NCBI RefSeq assembly: GCF_001854245.1 | Contig: NZ_CP015381.1 | Span: 212,001-276,000 of the forward strand | DNA from: Desulfococcus multivorans | GTDB lineage: Bacteria; Desulfobacterota; Desulfobacteria; Desulfobacterales; Desulfococcaceae | Direction: 5' to 3' | DNA: 64,000 nucleotides | In this document: in pieces, positions 8,708 through 64,000 of the stretch | Layout of the letters: each line of letters starts with the position of its first letter | Numbering within the stretch: position 1 is the stretch's first letter | Position numbers and translations under genes: made by a program | Notes under the pieces: generated by a model | Databases searched by the model: none | The model's input: only the letters and a program-made list of their open reading frames with translations | Told to the model about the DNA's origin: nothing

Positions 8708-8955
8708 CCGGGAAAGGCCTGGATCGGGTCGGACTGGTCCAAAGTGTGTCTGCATACAACCGGAGATTTTTTCCGGAAGCAACTGATGACCAAACCGGCG
8801 CATTACTATAAAGCCGATCAGGACGGACCCGAATGGACCCAGAGCGGCATAGCCGGGAGGATTTTGATGGTCCCCCCGGCTATGCCGCCCCTATACCGTG
8901 CTAAAAACGTTTTTCTTTCGGTAAAGTGTCCGGGAAGATCTTAACTTATTCAAAT

Positions 8956-9156
8956 TATTTTTATGTGCGGGTCAACTCGTGCGCTGTGTGGTCCTTCTTC
9001 ACTCAAAGCATAAAATGCACCCATAAATGGTTGAATCGCCGAAGCCAGAGGAAAAGCTGCAATTGGGAAAAGTTCAAGCGTATGCTTGAACAGGCCGGAA
9101 TTCCAAAACCGAAACCGACGGAAAAGAGACGAATGCATCAGGTTGCGCTGGGATAA
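8956..9156 (+). pseudogene. Group II intron reverse transcriptase/maturase, C-terminal remnant
   Basis: The frame carries HKWLNRRSQRKSCNWEKFKR, the very characteristic maturase/thumb motif (W-L-N-R-R-S-Q-[RK]-[RK]-S-x-x-W) found near the end of group II intron-encoded proteins, followed by a Pro-rich tail and a stop at 9156. The preceding residues (YFYVRVNS..FF) also fit the stretch before this motif. No reverse transcriptase domain or intron RNA ends are present, so this is a decayed fragment. Confidence 0.7.
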
Positions 9157-9177
9157 ACCGACGCGGTCAAATTCGAT

Positions 9178-9249
9178 TCACCCTTTGGGTTCGCTGTAGG
9201 CCCTCATCCACTTTCTGACGGCGTTATCGCTCACTCCATATTTTTCAGA
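9178..9249 (-). pseudogene. Helix-turn-helix C-terminal fragment
   Basis: On the minus strand a short frame reads SEKYGVSDNAVRKWMRAYSE and ends at a TGA. YGVSDNAVRKW is a typical helix-turn-helix used by small DNA-binding or HNH-associated proteins. There is no upstream coding continuation, and the fragment abuts and partly overlaps the sigma-54 activator remnant. It is probably a relic. Confidence 0.3.
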
Positions 9250-9359
9250 TTACCATTCCGTCGCTTCGCGATCGCATGGAAGACATTACGCTTCTTGTCG
9301 ATTTCTACGTTCATAAGATCTCCAAAAGGTTGTCACCTATCGTTTTTCCCAAAATTCAG
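9240..9359 (+). pseudogene. Sigma-54 activator (AAA+) fragment
   Basis: Translation gives IFQITIPSLRDRMEDITLLV then DFYVHKISKRL, closely matching residues of the intact NtrC-type activator encoded at 21660-23141 (IFPITMPPLRNRPDDIPLLV, DFYVDRISKRM). This is the AAA+ sensor-1/lid region. Walker motifs, GAFTGA and the DNA-binding domain are absent. The fragment therefore marks a lost paralog. An enhancer-like motif and a -24/-12-like box follow it, in the same order as after the intact gene. Confidence 0.65.
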
Positions 9360-9478
9360 GACGCCCTGCCTCCCGCATTCTCAGGGCCACACAATGACGA
9401 TGAAACTTCGGTTTCATCATCATGTCGGGATATGCCAACGCCTCCCAACGATACCGGATCGTCGGAATAAAAAGGCAT

Positions 9479-9499
9479 ATATGACCACTGATTAAATAT
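9479..9499. promoter_or_regulatory. Enhancer-like motif (copy of 23216-23236)
   Basis: The 21-bp sequence ATATGACCACTGATTAAATAT differs at four positions from the sequence at 23216-23236. Both are imperfect dyads, both lie after an NtrC-family gene or its remnant, and both precede a -24/-12-like box by about 125 bases. It is best read as an upstream activator site for a sigma-54 activator (inference). Confidence 0.45.
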
Positions 9500-9571
9500 G
9501 ACCTTTTTGCGCAGATGCCAGGGGCGACGCCGAAAATGCTTTTGTTCATTTATTTTCATATAATATCGATT

Positions 9572-9706
9572 CTATATGTTGCATGCCCCCGTGTATTGGA
9601 AACCTGGCATATAAATTGTATTGTTATAGCGTACTGAACAAGAAGCATCCACCCGGACGACGGGTATGTCGTATCGCTCGGTGGCCGTAAGGATCAGTTT
9701 GGCCAT
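9572..9706 (-). CDS. Small hypothetical protein, 44 residues
   Basis: A short frame beginning MAKLILTATERYDIPVVRV on the minus strand. It is supported mainly by a strong ribosome-binding site AAAAGGAG seven bases before the ATG at 9706. No family is recognised. It overlaps the sigma-54 promoter candidate in antisense, so at most one of the two readings may be functional. It could be the truncated start of a longer gene. Confidence 0.35.
   Translation of the reverse strand: MAKLILTATERYDIPVVRVDASCSVRYNNTIYMPGFQYTGACNI
9605..9620 (+). promoter_or_regulatory. Sigma-54 (-24/-12) promoter candidate
   Basis: TGGCAT-N5-TTGTA matches the consensus TGGCAC-N5-TTGCA except for one base in each box. 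It lies 126 bases after the start of the enhancer-like motif at 9479. What it would transcribe is unclear: the next convincing plus-strand gene is superoxide dismutase at 10042. Confidence 0.35.
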
Positions 9707-9975
9707 TCGAGTCTCCTTTTCGCTGATTCCCGCTGTTGAAGATGAAAAGCCGTGCATGCAGCACAGGTTGCTCAATATTTTGAGACGGTTCGTTAGGTTT
9801 TCAAACTCCGGCGCCGCTTATCGCCGCGATCGTTGTACCAGAGGTGTCCTTTCTGATCCCCAACTATTGGGATCTCAGATTTTGGCAATCATTCAAATTC
9901 TGAAGGAGTCCGGGCAATCGGATGCCGTTCCTTCAACGGAAAGATCATCCAGGATCCAGACAAAAAGAGTCTGAA

Positions 9976-55319: not shown

Positions 55320-56201
55320 TCAGGCGCCCTTTCGAGCGAGATGCCGCTCCAAGCGATGGACGGCCATGGACAGCATCAGGCAGATGACGAGATACATGGC
55401 GGTGATGGTAAGCCAGACCTCGATGGTGACATGGGTGGCGGCCATAATTTGCAGCCCCTGGAACGTGAGTTCCTGGATGGAGATGACCGATGCGATGGAT
55501 GAATACTTGATGGTGTTGATGAATTCGTTGGCCAGGGGCGGCAGCACCTGTTTGACGGCCTGAGGCAGAATGACGTGGCGCATCTTCTGGACCCAGGAAA
55601 ATCCCAAGGCCTCGGCGGCCTCCCACTGACCCCTCTCGATGCCCTGGATACCGGATCTGACGATTTCGGTGATATAGGCCCCCTGAAATACCGCGATGGT
55701 GACGACGCCGGAAACAAAGGCGGTGAAGCGATTGGGTTCGGCCAAAAAGACTGCCAGCCATTTCTGGGTTTGCGGGGAGCGGGACCGGATGAACGCGTCA
55801 ACCCCCAAAATCGGCATGATTTGATCGCTGACGAAAAAGTAGAAGATAAAGATCAGAACCAGCGGCGGCATATTGCGGATCAGCTCCACGTAGGTGCGGG
55901 CGATCAGGCGGTTGAAAAGCCTTCGGGTTGTCCGCATGATACCCATGAACCATCCGAGAATCGCCGCAAGCAGGGTGGCCCAGATGCTGAGGCGAAGCGT
56001 CGTCCAGAGCCCTTCCAGGAGGATATTGGCGACCCAATGGCCGTCGGTATCGCGCCGGACGAGATAGGTGGGGATGATGCCCCAATTCCATTTGTAGTTG
56101 AGCTGCATGGTCAGTCGCCAGACGATGTACCCCGCAAGGGTCGCGATGATGAGAATGACTGTGATGTCGAGAAGAGAGATCTTGGATGGTTTTTTGTGCA
56201 C
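55320..56201 (-). CDS. Polar amino acid ABC transporter permease (second)
   Basis: A 293-residue inner-membrane permease of the PAAT/HisMQ family. The first helix (SLLDITVILIIATLAGYIVW) is followed after a periplasmic loop by the conserved permease region: TLRLSIWATLLAAILGWFMG, RTYVELIRNMPPLVLIFIFY and the EAA loop GIERGQWEAAEALGFSWVQK. It starts with GTG (56201) and lacks a strong ribosome-binding site. It lies behind the binding protein gene and ends the minus-strand methyltransferase operon. No ATPase gene is present in the window. Confidence 0.88.
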   Translation of the reverse strand: MHKKPSKISLLDITVILIIATLAGYIVWRLTMQLNYKWNWGIIPTYLVRRDTDGHWVANILLEGLWTTLRLSIWATLLAAILGWFMGIMRTTRRLFNRLIARTYVELIRNMPPLVLIFIFYFFVSDQIMPILGVDAFIRSRSPQTQKWLAVFLAEPNRFTAFVSGVVTIAVFQGAYITEIVRSGIQGIERGQWEAAEALGFSWVQKMRHVILPQAVKQVLPPLANEFINTIKYSSIASVISIQELTFQGLQIMAATHVTIEVWLTITAMYLVICLMLSMAVHRLERHLARKGA

Positions 56202-56340: not shown

Positions 56341-57174
56341 TCATTGAATCAGGTTCGCCCAGTCCCGGGTATCGAACCAGTAATGGTGTTTTTCGGCCAA
56401 CCACCCCTCATCGGTGACATGAGTGATCCAGCTGTTGAAGAAGGTGAGGGTGTCGAAATCGCCCTTGCGCAGGGCAAAACCGATGGGCTCCTTGGTGAAG
56501 GTCCCCTGGATCGGCAGAAACAGGGTGTCCGAATATGCCAGTGTTTCATAGGCGGGTCGGGGCGCGGACCCGACCACTGCATGGACGTTCCCGTTCCGCA
56601 GCTCCTGATAGGCCTGGGCCTCGTCGTCGAACAGGCGCAGGGTCGCTTTGGGGATGAATTTCTTCGCGGCCATTACGGCGGTGGTGCCCAGCTTGCAAGC
56701 GATCTGGACCTCGGGCTTGTTGAAGTCCTCCAGAGACTTGAAGCCGGCTGCCTTTTCCTTGTGGGCGACGATCGCCATGCCCGAGTAATCGTAAGGAATG
56801 GAGAAGTTGACTTTGAGCGCGCGCTGGGGACGAATGCCCATCCCGCCGATGATCACGTCGAATTTTCCGGTCAGGAGGGCGGGGATGATACCCGACCATT
56901 TCGTGGGTACGAATTCCACTTTTACACCCATGTCCTCGGCCAGCCGTTTGGCGACATCGATCTCGAATCCGATGAAGTTGCCGTTCTTATCCTTCATGGC
57001 CCAAGGTTCGAAGGTATCCATGCCGACCCGAAGGACGCCTCGTTTCAGAACCTGCTCCAGTGTGCTTTCCTGAACCAGTTCCTGCTGGAGTTTACCGGCT
57101 GCGGCGGAGCCGGCCATGCCGGCCGCCAGAACGAGCAATAGTGCCGCTTGCAGAAAAATCGTCGTTTTTTTCAT
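56341..57174 (-). CDS. Amino acid ABC transporter substrate-binding protein
   Basis: A 277-residue periplasmic binding protein. Signal peptide MKKTTIFLQAALLLVLAAGM to about residue 26 (SAAA). The SBP_bac_3 domain shows RGVLRVGMDTFEPWAMKDKN, GNFIGFEIDVAKRLAEDMGV, GKFDVIIGGMGIRPQRALKV and PYDYSGMAIVAHKE. Ligands are usually amino acids or their methylated or betaine derivatives. AAAGGAG precedes ATG 57174. Placement in the methyltransferase operon suggests it brings in the methylated substrate. Confidence 0.9.
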   Translation of the reverse strand: MKKTTIFLQAALLLVLAAGMAGSAAAGKLQQELVQESTLEQVLKRGVLRVGMDTFEPWAMKDKNGNFIGFEIDVAKRLAEDMGVKVEFVPTKWSGIIPALLTGKFDVIIGGMGIRPQRALKVNFSIPYDYSGMAIVAHKEKAAGFKSLEDFNKPEVQIACKLGTTAVMAAKKFIPKATLRLFDDEAQAYQELRNGNVHAVVGSAPRPAYETLAYSDTLFLPIQGTFTKEPIGFALRKGDFDTLTFFNSWITHVTDEGWLAEKHHYWFDTRDWANLIQ

Positions 57175-57341
57175 GTGTTCTCCTTTCAATGCATCCTCCC
57201 GTGGGGGATGGTATCGTCCCGCCGGCCGCGACATCGCCTTCCGGCTGTCGATCCGTACGGGGTGGGGTTGCTGAAAATCAATGCGCCCCGTGACGCCGTG
57301 GTATTCACGAACTGCCGTTCCACGCCTGTCCTTTCCGGAGA

Positions 57342-58163
57342 TCAGGTGATCACCTTGAAGCGCTTCTCCATGATGTTGACGATGACGGAAAGGGTCACCG
57401 TCACTGCCAGATACATGGCGGCCACGGTGAACCAGAGTTCAAAGGTGAGAAATGTTTCGGAGATAATGGCCTGGGCTTGCATGGTCAGATCGTAAATGGC
57501 GATGGTGCTGACCAGCGCCGAGTCTTTGATCAACGAAATGGCCTGGCTGGTCAAGGGGGGCAGCGTCCGTCGGACGGCCTGGGGAAGAACGATGGTTCGG
57601 TATATCTGAAACCTACTGAGACCCAGGCTGTATCCTGCCTCCCACTGACCGCGGGGAATGGAGACGATCCCCGCTCTGAAGATTTCAGAGGCGTAGGCGC
57701 CTTCGAAGAGGCTGAGCGCCAGAACCGCGGACGGGAATCGTCCCAAACCCAGAACCGGTCCCGCGACAAAATAGATGAAGAAAAGCTGAATCAAGAGAGG
57801 GGTGTTGCGGCTCGTTTCCAGATAGAACCGCGCCAGAATCTGGGCCACGAAGGCATTCGAGAGACGGAACAGGGCCGTCGCCAACCCGATGGCAAAGGCC
57901 AGCACCAGACTGACGGCCGAGATGTGGAAGGTGACCACGAGTCCCTGGAGCAATGGCCCCGCCTGTAGACCGCTGTCGCTTCGGGTGACGATATATTGGG
58001 GAATTTGGTACCATTGCCAGTTGTACCCAAGATTCCCCGTGCTCTCGGTAAAAAACCAGACAACGACGATCATCAGAACGGCGAACTGGAAAACATCGAA
58101 CAGGGGGGATCGGATGATTCTTCGCCGGTCTTTGTTTCGTAGGTGGAGGGGTGCCGTTGTCAT
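57342..58163 (-). CDS. Polar amino acid ABC transporter permease (first)
   Basis: A 273-residue permease paralogous to the one at 55320. It has an N-terminal helix (VFQFAVLMIVVVWFFTEST), then VTFHISAVSLVLAFAIGLAT, RFYLETSRNTPLLIQLFFIY and the EAA loop SIPRGQWEAGYSLGLSRFQI. The two permeases with the binding protein between them form one uptake system that still needs an ATPase. It follows the CobW-type gene after a gap of about 250 bases. Confidence 0.88.
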   Translation of the reverse strand: MTTAPLHLRNKDRRRIIRSPLFDVFQFAVLMIVVVWFFTESTGNLGYNWQWYQIPQYIVTRSDSGLQAGPLLQGLVVTFHISAVSLVLAFAIGLATALFRLSNAFVAQILARFYLETSRNTPLLIQLFFIYFVAGPVLGLGRFPSAVLALSLFEGAYASEIFRAGIVSIPRGQWEAGYSLGLSRFQIYRTIVLPQAVRRTLPPLTSQAISLIKDSALVSTIAIYDLTMQAQAIISETFLTFELWFTVAAMYLAVTVTLSVIVNIMEKRFKVIT

Positions 58164-58414: not shown

Positions 58415-59410
58415 TCAGGCCGGTTCCAGAACGAGGGGGTGATGTCGGCCGAGCGTCGACAACTCACGGAGAACGTCGGCCGATCCGATGAAGACCAGGC
58501 GGCCCAGGATGTGATCCGGGATTTCCCGGGTGTCGGCCGCTATAATCTCCGGCCGGCCCATAACCCAGTTGAAGAGGCGGATCTCTCCGTTCAGGCGAAC
58601 GAATCCTTTGGCCCTCAAGAGTCGGGACGGCAGTTGTCGAACCAGGGCGTGGAAGGCTTCCGTCGTCGCTTCCTTCAGGGTCCAGACGGTGGAAGAGAGC
58701 GCATCCGGCGGGAGAGTGACCCGGAACGGGTCTTTCAGCAGCGCTGCTATGGCCGCCTCGACGTCTGCCTCGCGGCGGATCGTTTTGGCGAAGGATGTCT
58801 TCGCATCCGCTTCATTTCGACATGTCGTGAACCGCCCGACGGGGATCCTTCCGAAGACGGTTTCGAAGACGGTCGGATCCGGATGATGCCTGTGGATGAT
58901 CTCCCGGATGCGTTCAATCTCCAGTGTTTTGGCCAGATCGATCTTGTTGACGACGAAGCAGGTGGCGGCGGTCATCTGCTTTTCCACCGAAGCGAAGGTC
59001 TCGTATACGGCCGGAAAGCTCGCGGCGTCGATGATGCAGATCTGGTCCCGGAAGTGAAACCGGTTTCGGAAAATCGGCAGCCTGAGATCCCGTTTCATGT
59101 CTCCGGGATCCGCCGTTCCGGTGGCCTCGATGACCAGAATGTCGGGCTGGATATCCTCAAGGATCCTGACGAGCCCCTTGATGAAGTCGGTCTTGACGCA
59201 GGCGCAGAAAATCGAGCCTCGATTGATTTCCAGGATGTCCAGATCGTCCCCTTCGACGAGGATGCCGTCGATGCCGATCTCCCCGAATTCGTTCATGAGG
59301 ATCGTGAGTTTTCGCTCCGGCGGGAACGCATCTATGAAATGGTTCAGAAACGTCGTCTTGCCGCTGCCCAGAAAACCGGTGATCAGGAAAACATCGATGA
59401 CGGTGTTCAT
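58415..59410 (-). CDS. CobW/G3E-family GTPase
   Basis: A 331-residue P-loop GTPase. Walker A is GFLGSGKTTFLNH (12-24). A CxC-type metal motif GSIFCACVKTD (C69, C71) stands where CobW/Yjia proteins have CxCC. IEATGTADPGDMKRDL and VVNKIDLAKTLE (the NKxD motif) follow, with a C-terminal CobW_C-like domain. Such proteins deliver metal (Zn, Co, Fe) to client enzymes. Here it is encoded with corrinoid methyltransferases, so a role in cobalt/corrinoid or zinc supply or reactivation is likely. AAGGAG precedes ATG 59410. Confidence 0.85.
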   Translation of the reverse strand: MNTVIDVFLITGFLGSGKTTFLNHFIDAFPPERKLTILMNEFGEIGIDGILVEGDDLDILEINRGSIFCACVKTDFIKGLVRILEDIQPDILVIEATGTADPGDMKRDLRLPIFRNRFHFRDQICIIDAASFPAVYETFASVEKQMTAATCFVVNKIDLAKTLEIERIREIIHRHHPDPTVFETVFGRIPVGRFTTCRNEADAKTSFAKTIRREADVEAAIAALLKDPFRVTLPPDALSSTVWTLKEATTEAFHALVRQLPSRLLRAKGFVRLNGEIRLFNWVMGRPEIIAADTREIPDHILGRLVFIGSADVLRELSTLGRHHPLVLEPA

Positions 59411-59482: not shown

Positions 59483-59803
59483 TCAGATCCCGGTATTCAG
59501 CCTGTCTTCAATGGCCGCCTCCAGATCGTCCTGAGGGGGTATGATGTCGAAGGCAAGCCGACCGTTCATGAACAGGCCTGGAATGGGTGCCAGCTTGAGA
59601 CCCCGGAATACGGCCGTTTCGCCGAACAGGTCGACGGAGAGGCGCAGAAATCGATCCCGACCGGCGGGTGATCCAAGGTCCACCGGCCGATAGGCCACCC
59701 GATCCCCGTAGCGGGGCAGCACGGCCGATACGGCGTCGCTCATGAGCCGACTGGGAAGATAGGCCTGGTGTTTGAACGTCACCTCGATCAGCAGTGCCGC
59801 CAT
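59483..59803 (-). CDS. Thioredoxin-fold-like protein without CxxC
   Basis: A 106-residue protein: LLIEVTFKHQAYLPSRLMSD, RFLRLSVDLFGETAVFRGLK and the cis-Pro-like loop APIPGLFMNGRLAFDI. The pattern suggests a thioredoxin fold, but the usual redox cysteines are absent. It starts immediately after the stop of the CxxC-containing neighbour (TGACATG), so the two are translationally coupled and may work as a pair. Function is unknown; I infer a redox or scaffold role for the methyltransferase system. Confidence 0.6.
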   Translation of the reverse strand: MAALLIEVTFKHQAYLPSRLMSDAVSAVLPRYGDRVAYRPVDLGSPAGRDRFLRLSVDLFGETAVFRGLKLAPIPGLFMNGRLAFDIIPPQDDLEAAIEDRLNTGI

Positions 59804-59804
59804 G

Positions 59805-60197
59805 TCATTTCCCGGTTCGGGTGTTGCGGCCGGCCCCGGCCTTCTCCAGATTCTCCTTGATCCGATCAAAATCGAATCCGGCATCCCGCAGGGAGAGAAG
59901 CCGATCCCGGACAGCCTCGCCGGGGGCCCGTGCGGCCAGAGCGTCGATGAGCTCCTCGTATTGAGGGATGATGCTCTGGAAGACGAGATCGCCCTCGATA
60001 CAGATGGTGGGCAGCACCTTGCCCCTGAGGGCGGTGAAGCGGGCGACGCCTTCGGCGGTTTTGACGGACCACTCCCGATATTCGATCAGCGTCTGGATTT
60101 GGGGGGGCAGAGCGGCGATGGACTCCATCATGTAGCCGCAGGCGGCGCACTGGACGCTGTCCAGCGTGAGGACGTCAATATGGATTTTTTCCGTCAT
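59805..60197 (-). CDS. Thioredoxin-like protein with CxxC motif
   Basis: A 130-residue protein: IHIDVLTLDSVQCAACGYMM carries a CAAC redox motif at the usual N-terminal place (Cys17 and Cys20), and VLPTICIEGDLVFQSIIPQY supplies the cis-Pro loop. It is a small thiol-disulfide protein. Relatives are often found beside corrinoid methyltransferase genes; one possible task is keeping a catalytic thiol or selenol of the partner reduced (inference). CAGGAG precedes ATG 60197, 29 bases beyond the TAA of the extended upstream gene. Confidence 0.75.
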   Translation of the reverse strand: MTEKIHIDVLTLDSVQCAACGYMMESIAALPPQIQTLIEYREWSVKTAEGVARFTALRGKVLPTICIEGDLVFQSIIPQYEELIDALAARAPGEAVRDRLLSLRDAGFDFDRIKENLEKAGAGRNTRTGK

Positions 60198-60226: not shown

Positions 60227-61258
60227 TTACGGCGCCGGATACTTGGGATAATATTCGTCGAAAAATGTCCGGGCTTCAACAGCCTGAATGAGATGCTCCG
60301 CCGGAGTATCGAAGGGGATGTCTCAGCCGGGAGCGAATGTGTAGCCGTGGGTCCCCCCTGCCGCCAGGCTGATAAGGGCATCCTCCCTGGGGGAAATGAG
60401 CCCGAGGCTCAATGCCAGGGTGAGCTTGAGGTTGCCGCCGAAACCTTTTCCGTGTTTCCGGGCGATGTCACGGATGAAATTGAGATTCATCTGTTCGTCC
60501 ACGGCAAAGGCATGCGTGCCGACGTCGCATACCGCCTCCACCACCTTGGTGCAGTCGCCGCAGATGAAGAAGGAGGAGGCGCGCCCTCCTGCGTGGATGG
60601 TTCGGACACTGGCGGCGCAATTGGGCGTGACGAACTCCCGAAAGGTCTCGGGACGGATCTGGGAGGCTACCGGGTCGACGATGGCGATGACGTCGCAGCC
60701 CATCTCCACATAGAACGCCGCTGCACGCGCGCCGATCTCTCCGGCGAAGCGAATGACCGCATGGGCGAAAGCCGGATCCTTTTTGACGGCGGTGAAGATG
60801 CGGACTCCGGCCAGGTGGGAGGCCAGGGTCAGGGGACCGGTCATGAGGCCCAGCATGGCGCAGTCCATTGCATCGAGTTGCGGCCTGGCGATTTTTGCCG
60901 CCTCGAAAACCACGGGCCAACGGCCGCTGTCTTTTTCGGGCAGGGCGAGGCCCACCACCTCAGGGGGCTGCTTGTCGCAGGGGTGGGTCCGCACCGAGGG
61001 AACGTTGTCCTCCCAATACTCCACCCCGCACCCCACGGATTCGGCTTCCAGAGAGAGGTCGAAGAGGAGGGGGATGCCGTCGGCCCGGTAGGTCCGGGCC
61101 GCTTCCACTACGCCTTTGGCCATCAGATCGGGATTCCTGAAATAGCGGTCCGCCTTTTCCCGGATGAGGTGGGCGCAGTTGACGCCGGCATACGGCACCC
61201 AGGGCGGTATGGCGGTCCGTCGTCCCAGGGTGGCGTCGATGAGCAGCTGTTTGGCCAT
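60227..61258 (-). CDS. MtaA/UroD-family corrinoid methyltransferase with in-frame TGA (possible selenoprotein)
   Basis: Read to the TGA at 60323-60325 this gives 311 residues; read through it gives 343, the usual length of MtaA/MtbA enzymes. The barrel shows DGIPLLFDLSLEAESVGCGV, LGLMTGPLTLASHLAG, VIAIVDPVASQIRPETFREF and, where MtaA has its H-x-C zinc site, SSFFICGDC (C233; His is replaced by Phe). After FAPG comes TGA, then DIPFDTPAEHLIQAVEAR and 13 more residues to TAA 60227. Homologs read GCD-[LI]-P there, with the zinc-ligand Cys, so the TGA stands exactly for that Cys. A hairpin of bacterial SECIS type follows. A nonsense mutation is the alternative. GAAGGAG precedes ATG 61258. The enzyme would move the methyl group from the corrinoid protein to a thiol or folate-type acceptor. 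Confidence 0.75.
60292..60310 (-). promoter_or_regulatory. SECIS-like hairpin after the in-frame TGA
   Basis: On the minus-strand RNA, 12 bases after the UGA, GAUACUCC pairs with GGAGCAUC (one A-C mismatch) around a GGC loop. The loop begins 20 bases after the UGA and has G in its first two positions. These values agree with the published consensus for bacterial SECIS elements (spacing 16-37, stem 4-16 bp, loop 3-14 with an early G). The stem is short, so chance cannot be excluded. Confidence 0.45.
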
Positions 61259-61271
61259 GATCACTCCTTCT

Positions 61272-62654
61272 TCAATAAGGGAATGGGACGCCCAGGGCTG
61301 CGATTTCGTCTTTGACCCGCCGGTACATGTCCAGATGTTCCATGGTCGGGACGGCCCTGTCGACGTCGTAGCACTCGGCGTATTCAGCACCCATGGGCGC
61401 TTCGGCCGCCTGGTCCTCATAGGTCGCGAGCAGCCTGAGGGCGATCTCGTTCACCTGCTCCCGGGTGAGTCCTCCGTGGGCTACGGCGTGTCCGGCCTCG
61501 CATCCCAACCGGGCCTCCAGGGGCGTGGCCCGGTTCCGGTATTTGTTCCGGGCGGAGGCCATCTCCCAGAGGTTCCATCCGCAGACCGTCGATACCATGG
61601 CATGGACGGCGGTCTCCCGAAAAAGCATCTCGGTCATGGGGCCGGCGTTGGCGAATCCGTTGGATGTGTAGATGAGCTTGCTGTTTCGGGACAGGGCCTG
61701 TCCGGCCATGGCGATGGCCCATAGCAGTTCCCGGGTGGTGTTGGCGCCGAGATTGAGATGGAACGGGAAATGCTGATTGAATATGGCGCCGTGAACCACA
61801 AGCCCGATGAGGCTGTAAGCCACGATGGTGACGGCCGTGCCTTCGGAACCCATGCACCAGCCGCCGTAGATGGGGCCGGTGAGATGGCCGGTGTAGCAGC
61901 CGTACTGGGCGTAATGGAGGGATCGGTTGAGAAGGGTATCGGCGGTCTTGAACTCGGTGAGCCCTCCCACCAGCCGGGCATCGGTTTTTTGAACGCCCCA
62001 CTGCTCGTTGGAGACGGCGATCTGGCCGGTGTCGTGCTCGGCGGTGCCGACGGCCACCATGAAGATGTCCGGACGGCCCAGGAGCCGAGCTGCCATCTTC
62101 TGGTTGTAGATGTGTTGGATGCAGCCGCTGATCTCCGTCGGCCCGGCGGATTCGATGAGGCGGCCGAAGGTCTCTTCCAGGATGGGGCCGCAGAGCCCGT
62201 CCAAAAGCGGCTCTTTCAGGTAGGCCATGCACATGGAGGCGTGGTATTTTTCATCCACCGTGATGTCCGGGCTCATGATGCAAAAGGGCGGGGTCCGATC
62301 CTCCACCTTGCGATGGGCGAAGCGCCGACCGTCCCTGCCGGCCCCCACCCAATAGCAATCCCGGGCGGTGTAGAGGGCCTCGCCGATCTCTTCGTCCGAC
62401 ACCTGAATGATGCGATGGGTGTCGGTATTGTAGTATCCCACCTCACGGAAAAGCTCCCAGCCTGCCTGCCATATGCGGTCGGCCATGGCGTCGTCGGCGG
62501 GGCATGGGGTCGCCGGATCGTATCGGATTTCGTATTTTTTGATCAGCCTCCTGAGGGTGGGGGTGAAGCGTTTCGGGAGAAACGCCTCCTCTTCCATGAA
62601 GGGCCCGGTTTTGGCCCGGTCCAGGATCTCCCACATGCGATAGGCGGTCGACAT
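61272..62654 (-). CDS. MtmB-family methyltransferase lacking pyrrolysine
   Basis: A 460-residue protein matching monomethylamine methyltransferase MtmB along its length: ILDRAKTG near the start, EVGYYNTDTHRIIQVSDEEI (71-90), WVGAGRDGRR, HLTGPIYGGWCMGSEGTAV and the end ECYDVDRAVPTMEHLDMYRR. MtmB has pyrrolysine (TAG) at about residue 202 in GRPGMGV-O-GPE. Here the same place reads GRPDIFMVAVGTAEHDTG with no stop codon. It is therefore a non-pyrrolysine homolog, as MtgB is to MttB, and the substrate is probably not monomethylamine. AAGGAGG precedes ATG 62654. It would methylate the corrinoid protein encoded upstream. Confidence 0.85.
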   Translation of the reverse strand: MSTAYRMWEILDRAKTGPFMEEEAFLPKRFTPTLRRLIKKYEIRYDPATPCPADDAMADRIWQAGWELFREVGYYNTDTHRIIQVSDEEIGEALYTARDCYWVGAGRDGRRFAHRKVEDRTPPFCIMSPDITVDEKYHASMCMAYLKEPLLDGLCGPILEETFGRLIESAGPTEISGCIQHIYNQKMAARLLGRPDIFMVAVGTAEHDTGQIAVSNEQWGVQKTDARLVGGLTEFKTADTLLNRSLHYAQYGCYTGHLTGPIYGGWCMGSEGTAVTIVAYSLIGLVVHGAIFNQHFPFHLNLGANTTRELLWAIAMAGQALSRNSKLIYTSNGFANAGPMTEMLFRETAVHAMVSTVCGWNLWEMASARNKYRNRATPLEARLGCEAGHAVAHGGLTREQVNEIALRLLATYEDQAAEAPMGAEYAECYDVDRAVPTMEHLDMYRRVKDEIAALGVPFPY

Positions 62655-62778: not shown

Positions 62779-63408
62779 TTATTTCAGCAGTTCGGCGATG
62801 AGGTCCGGGGTGGACCGCGCATCGGGGCAGTAAAGGTCTGCGCCGATCCTGTCGGCCCAGAGCCGCGAGGTCGGCGCGCCGCCGATAATCACCTTGTAGC
62901 GATCGCGGAGGCCCATCTCCTTCAGAATATCGATGATCTCCTTCTGTCGGGGCATGGTCGTCGTCATCAAAGACGAGGCGCCGATGATGTCCGCGCCCAT
63001 GGCCTCCGCTTCTTTGACGAAGGTCAGCGCATCGACATTGTAGCCCAGGTCCTTGACCTGAAATCCGTTGGTCTCCAGGATGAGCTTGACGATATTTTTG
63101 CCGATTTCATGGAGATCTCCCTTGACCACCCCCAACACCACCTTGCCCTTGATCTGGCGTCCCCCGGCCTTTTCGAGGTGGGGCGCCATTTCATCAACCA
63201 CGGCGGACAGGGCCTCGCCGGCGAGCATGATCTCCGGCAGGAAGATTTCGAGCCGTGCGAACCGGTCTCCGACGCGGGCCATGGTTCGGGTCATGCATTC
63301 GATCATCTCGAGGGGATCACGCCCCCCCGACAGCAGCTGCTTCGCCGCTTCCCGGGCGTCCTCGCTCTCCCCGTCTTCGACGAGCTTGCTCAGGGCTTCC
63401 AGTGACAT
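62779..63408 (-). CDS. Corrinoid-binding methyltransferase protein (MtmC/MtbC type)
   Basis: A 209-residue protein with a helical cap (about 1-85) and a B12-binding domain with the cobalt-ligand motif D98-L-H100-E-I-G103 in VVKGDLHEIGKNIVKLIL. The base-binding parts are IGASSLMTTTMPRQKEI and VIIGGAPTSRLWADRIGAD. It shuttles the methyl group from the MtmB-like enzyme to the UroD-like enzyme. It is the first gene after the palindromic operator and promoter. Its ribosome-binding site (AAAGGGAACGG) is moderate. Confidence 0.93.
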   Translation of the reverse strand: MSLEALSKLVEDGESEDAREAAKQLLSGGRDPLEMIECMTRTMARVGDRFARLEIFLPEIMLAGEALSAVVDEMAPHLEKAGGRQIKGKVVLGVVKGDLHEIGKNIVKLILETNGFQVKDLGYNVDALTFVKEAEAMGADIIGASSLMTTTMPRQKEIIDILKEMGLRDRYKVIIGGAPTSRLWADRIGADLYCPDARSTPDLIAELLK

Positions 63409-63721: not shown

Positions 63722-64000
63722 TCAGGACGTCTCCGGATGGAAATCCCCCGCTTCGAGCATGGGGGTGAAGGTATCCTTGAAGGCCATGTCGCCCCGCATG
63801 AAATACTCTACGTAGGTCACGGGAGATTCGCAGGAATAGACGGTGCGCTGAAAATAAAAGACCGGATATCCCGGTTTTTCACCGAACAGGTCGGAGAGGT
63901 TTTCCGGCAACCCGACTGCGGTCATGCACTGGCTGATCCGTGTCAGCGGCAGGCGATATTTGTTGATGAGAATGTCGTGAATGGAGTTTTCGGCCAGGTT
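63722..64000 (-). CDS. GntR-family regulator with UTRA domain, C-terminal part (partial)
   Basis: The 3' end of a regulator that starts beyond the window. The frame is open from 64000 and shows a UTRA ligand domain end: SIHDILINKYRLPLTRISQC, LPENLSDLFGEKPGYPVFYF, QRTVYSCESPVTYVEYFMRG. UTRA domains of HutC/FarR-type regulators bind the pathway substrate or product. It is transcribed in the same direction as the methyltransferase operon and lies next to the palindromic operator, so it is the likely controller and its ligand may be the methylated substrate. Confidence 0.85.
   Translation of the reverse strand, partial: NLAENSIHDILINKYRLPLTRISQCMTAVGLPENLSDLFGEKPGYPVFYFQRTVYSCESPVTYVEYFMRGDMAFKDTFTPMLEAGDFHPETS

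Follow-up and report, generated by a model that had tools for sequence, protein, structure and literature searches.

A gene for a UroD/MtaA-like protein in Desulfococcus multivorans, a marine sulfate-reducing bacterium, carries an in-frame UGA at codon 312 whose decoding as selenocysteine (Sec) is strongly supported by the comparative evidence, and which would almost certainly put selenium into the active site of a protein related to B12-dependent methyltransferases. The predicted product, here called UroD-Sec, is probably the second methyltransferase (MT2) of a corrinoid system. Our full reading, to which we assign a probability of about 0.7, is that the UGA is decoded as Sec and that the protein would serve as the MT2 of a corrinoid amine-demethylation system, with Sec acting as a metal ligand or as a selenolate that activates the methyl acceptor. 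Conservation of the UGA, coding after it, a downstream hairpin, Cys forms, the Sec machinery, gene partners and a fusion in a sister family were each observed computationally. The window, that is the whole stretch of 64,000 nucleotides analysed, belongs to a genome consisting of a single contig of 4,455,399 bases, and holds the following features:

60227..61258, minus strand: UroD/MtaA-like predicted selenoprotein, 343 aa with Sec312 (PF01208; best PDB sequence match 4AY7, MtaA; TGA column in orthologs)
60323..60325, minus strand: in-frame UGA, predicted Sec codon, residue 312 (conserved TGA; Cys forms in orthologs)
60292..60310, minus strand: SECIS-like hairpin, 13th to 31st base after the UGA (own fold; ortholog consensus; shuffled controls)
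59805..60197, minus strand: thioredoxin-like partner Trx1, CAACGYM motif (follows the methyltransferase gene; fused in the sister family)
59483..59884, minus strand: second thioredoxin-like protein Trx2, CxxC lost (YLPS), start probably internal
58415..59410, minus strand: CobW/COG0523-type GTPase, putative metallochaperone (PF02492, 126.5 bits)
61272..62654, minus strand: MtmB-like methyltransferase without pyrrolysine, Val200 at the Pyl position (PF05369, 275.7 bits; alignment to 1L2Q)
62779..63408, minus strand: methyltransferase-cognate corrinoid protein (TIGR02370, 186.2 bits, below the cut-off of 215.3; PF02310 and PF02607 over cut-off)
63722..64000, minus strand: GntR/UTRA regulator, extending past the window (L074:13722-14624; PF07702, PF00392)
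57342..58163, minus strand: ABC permease, amino-acid type, possibly for substrate uptake (PF00528)
56341..57234, minus strand: family-3 solute-binding protein (PF00497, 121.2 bits)
55320..56201, minus strand: ABC permease, amino-acid type (PF00528)

The reading frame runs on the minus strand from an ATG at 61258 to a TAA at 60229-60227, with a single in-frame TGA (60325-60323) directly after FAPG and 31 codons between TGA and TAA, yielding 343 residues with the TGA counted; termination at the TGA would give 311 residues followed by 125 bases to the next gene (60197). These particulars, on which the initial annotation had based its proposal of a candidate selenoprotein, were all confirmed in the sequence, and the proposal itself is strongly supported by the TGA column, coding past the TGA, the hairpin, the Cys forms and the sel genes. 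The annotation had named beforehand outcomes that would speak against it, among them missing sel genes, a TGC on resequencing and homologs ending at FAPG, and none was found. The protein scored 165.6 bits with PF01208 (UroD superfamily; gathering cut-off 23.9), 139.4 bits with TIGR01463 (MtaA/CmuA; curated cut-off 235.4), and fell below the cut-offs of all four MtaA/MtbA/CmuA-type models that it matched.

We searched 389 genomes of the same order, 50 of which contained a total of 53 full-length orthologs (64-100% identity), and 395 genomes of the phylum, 12 of which matched at E <= 1e-30. Fragments from the order searches (two in G007, one of them with the TGA, and one each in G032 and G127) were left out of the ortholog counts. 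Codon 312 of the order orthologs was an in-register TGA in 50 cases, a TGA displaced by one codon in one (L109) and TGC in two (L044 and L045). The 12 phylum matches comprised two genomes known already (G000 and G134), seven with new full-length orthologs (57-67% identity) and three more distant proteins (L137-L139), with six of the seven new orthologs carrying TGA and the seventh TGT (L136). Aligning homologs at this column, as the initial annotation had suggested, thus gave 57 TGA codons and 3 Cys codons among the 60 full-length orthologs of both draws, and the three Cys genes all read through to the same length. The orthologs were spread over 57 genomes, 54 of them with the Sec form, within the window's phylum, to which both draws were confined. 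When GTDB genomes were scanned by pattern for close relatives, seven loci came up, labelled Desulfococcus, Desulfosarcina, Desulfobacteraceae or Deltaproteobacteria.

A TGA is ordinarily a stop, and this is the sole point in favour of a protein that ends at residue 311, through a true stop or a sequence error. We find that reading barely credible, given a TGA column common to nearly all orthologs, Cys forms that extend to the same length, and a coding signal that runs on past the TGA. Comparing every pair among the 50 in-register TGA genes gave differences at codon positions 1/2/3 of 0.195/0.114/0.560 before the TGA (codons 2-311) and 0.213/0.182/0.481 after it (codons 313-341, hairpin codons excluded), and flat values past the final stop (20 codons; 0.690/0.698/0.707). 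Because this periodicity persists after the TGA and disappears past the final stop, the intervening stretch appears to be translated. As a control we counted in-frame stops among neighbouring-gene matches with at least 90% coverage in the ortholog loci, a cut that excludes shorter Trx1 paralogs, some of them TGA-bearing: there were none in Trx1 (0/50), the corrinoid protein (0/22), CobW (0/19) or the MtmB-like protein (0/10), and one in the GntR fragment (1/6). Since the TGA occupies one column throughout and the neighbours are nearly free of in-frame stops, its conservation exceeds chance. On the same grounds of column and coding signal we discarded a stop codon or sequencing error, and a reassigned genetic code appears unlikely in view of the neighbours and of TGA as the final stop in 10 of the 57 Sec genes.

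The initial annotation had also claimed a hairpin downstream of the TGA, and a SECIS-like hairpin is indeed present and conserved in step with the TGA. The consensus stem of the 50 Sec orthologs spans bases 14 to 30 past the UGA, with 7 pairs and a 3-base loop at bases 21-23; all 7 pairs form in 43 of these genes and 6 pairs in the other 7, compared with 3 and 1 in the TGC genes L044 and L045. Over the hairpin codons 317-322, differences between pairs of the 50 Sec genes were 0.050/0.119/0.060, the third position being frozen. GTT accounted for 47/47 Val codons at 318 and CCG for 50/50 Pro codons at 319, and these two, which contribute to the stem, had the lowest entropies of all 108 four-fold codons (residue common to at least 35 sequences; median 1.685 bits). 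Changes on both sides of a pair occurred from U-A to C-G in 3 genes and from A-U to G-C in 2. Covariation as scored by RNAalifold was not favourable (+0.06), a value close to zero because most stems are identical in sequence, so that the SECIS argument rests on the lack of synonymous change in the stem and on the few pairs altered on both sides. None of 1000 control alignments yielded a consensus structure (500 column-swapped and 500 with independently drawn synonymous codons). More distant Sec genes (L134 and L135) retained a stem with changed pairing, and the stem was weaker in the Cys gene L136 (-3.1 kcal/mol, versus -7.2 in L130-L132). The window's own copy folds at -6.1 kcal/mol with one A.C mismatch, and within 48 nt including the UGA a different fold has lower energy; the mismatch and the competing fold count mildly against a SECIS. 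A search of the window against Rfam at gathering thresholds yielded no match. Overall, the comparison strongly supports the hairpin as the predicted SECIS of UGA 312, conserved in Sec forms and degraded in Cys forms.

The search for sel genes that the initial annotation had proposed found the complete set in the D. multivorans genome: tRNA-Sec (77.2 bits, anticodon TCA), selA (619 bits), selB (361 bits) and selD in two copies, both of which carry a TGA in frame (G000:C1:392680-393600 and 2844887-2845810). SelB scored over the cut-off in 40 of the 50 order genomes, the other ten being drafts of about 290 to 950 contigs, among which G001 and G104 are 97-98% complete. The Cys form is not confined to Sec-lacking genomes, since one Cys genome (G143) has SelB over the cut-off; another (G226, 73% complete) gave no such match. 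The D. multivorans contig also contains, at about 1714442-1716502 of C1, a second tRNA-Sec-like gene (anticodon TCA) that scores 45.6 bits, under the Rfam cut-off of 47, with a second SelB-like gene immediately behind it (L142:1443-3518 and L002:1497-1588); the two could possibly form a second Sec-decoding set.

A sister family of 12 proteins (447-450 aa from the aligned start) has Cys at position 312 in 12/12 and a Trx match 46-121 nt past the UroD match in 12/12; for L117, L121 and L113, BLASTP or Pfam confirmed a UroD-Trx fusion in one frame. In a quickly built tree of 72 proteins, in which X stood for Sec, the sister family and the Cys ortholog L136 fell outside the Sec clade and L044/L045 inside it. 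SH-aLRT, the only support computed, was 96 for the Sec clade and 82 for the L044/L045 pair, with long branches flagged among L133, L045 and the sister family. This topology suggests that Cys would be ancestral, with one gain of Sec and one reversion; two changes suffice.

In the phmmer alignment to 4AY7, position 312 aligns with the Cys of MtaA APGC, and it also aligns with a His of bacterial UROD 6W2O, which we take to be the UROD active-site His. His148 is invariant (72/72) and aligns with Asp in MtaA and with a Tyr of tobacco UROD, presumably the active-site Tyr164 of human UROD; Cys233 is likewise invariant (72/72). Sec had been placed at the zinc-Cys column of MtaA by the initial annotation, and this column assignment stands; the standard zinc set does not, its His being missing. 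The Phe noted at the His of H-x-C is real (Phe231) and is not linked to Sec: Phe occupies the position in 71 of the 72 aligned sequences (Leu in one), including all 12 Cys-bearing sister proteins, and we therefore rejected a His-to-Phe change tied to Sec. The zinc set stated for S-methyltransferases of the UroD superfamily is His-Cys-Cys (PMC10418091, in the part consulted), and UroD-Sec has Phe231, Cys233 and Sec312 instead, so with Phe in place of His its metal site would be non-standard. A metal or acceptor-activating set of His148, Cys233 and Sec312 is offered as a proposal only. We also rejected a CxxC redox pair of Cys233 and Cys236 as the key site, Cys236 being Ala in 15 of 57 Sec forms. 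An AlphaFold model built with 8 sequences recovered the fold, with 4AY8/4AY7 as best PDB hits (25-27% identity in the structural alignment); pLDDT was below 50 at residues 276-319, which makes the region around Sec312 unreliable.

Trx1 is the next gene after UroD-Sec in 51 of the 58 orthologs with at least 700 nt of downstream sequence, the remaining 7 having no recognised Trx1. CobW lies within 3.5 kb downstream in 16/17 testable orthologs, and upstream the corrinoid gene is found in 11/13 and the MtmB-like gene in 10/38. The window thus encodes a candidate MT1, the MtmB-like protein, and a corrinoid protein alongside UroD-Sec, and a search of the D. multivorans genome for the MtrH family gave no match; the MT2 role in an amine-demethylation system is drawn from these partners and from this negative search. 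Two counts weigh against it, the scarcity of the MtmB-like gene upstream and the 7 orthologs without a recognised Trx1.

We infer the following course of events, from selenium insertion to the MT2 role, metal, acceptor and substrate. The SECIS hairpin with SelA, SelB, SelD and tRNA-Sec would decode UGA 312 as Sec. The MtmB-like enzyme, a candidate demethylase of another N-methyl compound, would demethylate a small imported N-methyl substrate and methylate the corrinoid protein, and UroD-Sec would pass the methyl group from methyl-Co(III) to an acceptor. The metal or acceptor-activating site may consist of Sec312 and Cys233, perhaps joined by His148; the CobW GTPase may load the metal, and the Trx-like CAAC protein may either maintain the selenol/thiol pair in reduced form or present the acceptor. 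It is also conceivable, though rather improbable, that Sec312 is itself the methyl acceptor, with the methyl group moving from cobalt to the selenolate (giving Se-methylselenocysteine) and then to a small acceptor or to a thiol on the Trx-like partner. This would amount to a selenium methyl relay in corrinoid chemistry, and we know of no such catalysis.

The constancy of the Trx-like partner, adjoining in most orthologs and fused in the sister family, would equally suit a redox or maintenance component, in which a Cys233-Sec312 selenenylsulfide is recycled by that partner; the corrinoid, or an organo-selenium or metal(loid) substrate, might for instance be handled reductively in this way. The loss of one zinc ligand to Phe, and the UxxC and HUIPC-type frames and a thioredoxin reductase-like gene (recognised by eye) in several clusters, point the same way. 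We nonetheless hold this reading unlikely, MtaA being the closest relative in fold and sequence and the CobW neighbour suggesting a metal; COG0523 GTPases have been reported beside mtaA, mtaB and mtaC (PMC2770081, as far as consulted). It is more doubtful still that UroD-Sec is the substrate-side demethylase (MT1), methylating the corrinoid from a methyl-S/Se or O-methyl compound. Demethylase activity occurs among UroD relatives, and the Mlps have been proposed as demethylases of methyl-selenium compounds (PMC10418091, consulted sections); against this, the MtmB-like protein is the natural MT1 of the window, no MtrH-type MT2 was found in the genome, and UroD-Sec lacks the full ligand set of the S-methyltransferases in the same source.

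The MT2 assignment may not extend to every locus. A second gene-order type (e.g. L083 and L088; family scans on L088 only) has MtrH, another UroD, a corrinoid protein, a RACo activase and DUF6951 upstream, and another role is possible there because the adjoining UroD and MtrH could already be MT1 and MT2. The cluster of the DUF6951 protein (L088:8252-8671) was present in 9 of the 20 loci compared. The sister cluster L113 encodes an MttB-family protein, a BCCT transporter, a RACo activase, a CobW-like protein and a corrinoid protein that resembles MtgC while scoring under the MtgC cut-offs; its MttB-family protein lacks a pyrrolysine codon, since it reads without interruption. Most of this content is shared with the glycine betaine MtgB/MtgC/MtgA systems, from which L113 differs by UroD-Trx and the CobW-like gene; no MtgA or MtrH was among the six identified of its seven ORFs (ORF 8865-9779 being outside these).

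UroD-Sec resembles the MtaA/MtbA methylcobamide:coenzyme M methyltransferases in its fold, its best PDB matches and the C-terminal APGC-type ligand column, and differs from them in Sec for Cys, Phe for the His of H-x-C and its low identity. To our knowledge, coenzyme M is not to be expected in D. multivorans. An MtmB-like, a corrinoid and a UroD gene found together are reminiscent of the methylamine genes of methanogens, a trio whose CoM methylase is MtbA (PMC8318568). Like UroD-Sec, the Mlp proteins of type 1 mlp gene clusters are bacterial UroD-family corrinoid methyltransferases, often in Sec-using genomes; unlike it, they have the His-Cys-Cys zinc set, with some exceptions, and the consulted portion of PMC10418091 makes no mention of Sec within an Mlp itself. 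UGA/Sec, a downstream SECIS and Cys homologs are traits shared with known prokaryotic selenoprotein families. The 2026 review of 119 such families includes HgcA (corrinoid), a CobW-related and a HUIPC Trx-like family, and has no entry for UroD/PF01208 in the parts of its table and text consulted (PMC13188914). The genome paper for D. multivorans DSM 2059 gives, in the part consulted, five Sec genes (HdrA, MvhD, FdhA, a peroxiredoxin and BamE; PMC5109826), and the UroD-Sec gene is absent from these five. NCBIfam release 20 gave five matches to the protein with no selenoprotein model among them, and literature searches combining Sec or selenoprotein with UroD, corrinoid, methylcobalamin or MtaA, covering mostly open-access titles and abstract beginnings, returned no such description among the matches listed. 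Against the inventories checked, Sec in a UroD/MtaA-like family does not seem to have been described.

Most selenoproteins have been attributed redox functions (PMC13188914, consulted in part), and here Sec would occupy the position of the zinc-ligand Cys in a fold that transfers methyl groups; the ancestral form of the enzyme probably had Cys, and it has a Trx partner of its own. Comparing its Cys and Sec forms would be a natural experiment on what selenium adds to methyl transfer from cobalt to an acceptor. Gene calling that terminates at UGA would truncate the protein, and the system may be relevant to how sulfate reducers in sediments turn over methylated compounds.

The thioredoxin-like genes of these loci vary. 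Trx1 and Trx2 of the window scored 37.0 and 41.5 bits with NF047660 (HUIPC thioredoxin-like), below its cut-off of 105, and Trx2, which overlaps the end of Trx1, has YLPS where several homologs have CLPC. TGA-bearing Trx1 paralogs with the motif [R/K/H]QUxACVYM lie near UroD-Sec in L041, L053, L054, L058, L060, L067, L068, L086, L094 and L098, making them candidate UxxC thioredoxin-like selenoproteins, and L053 and L054 also have a GEHUIPC (HUIPC-type) frame.
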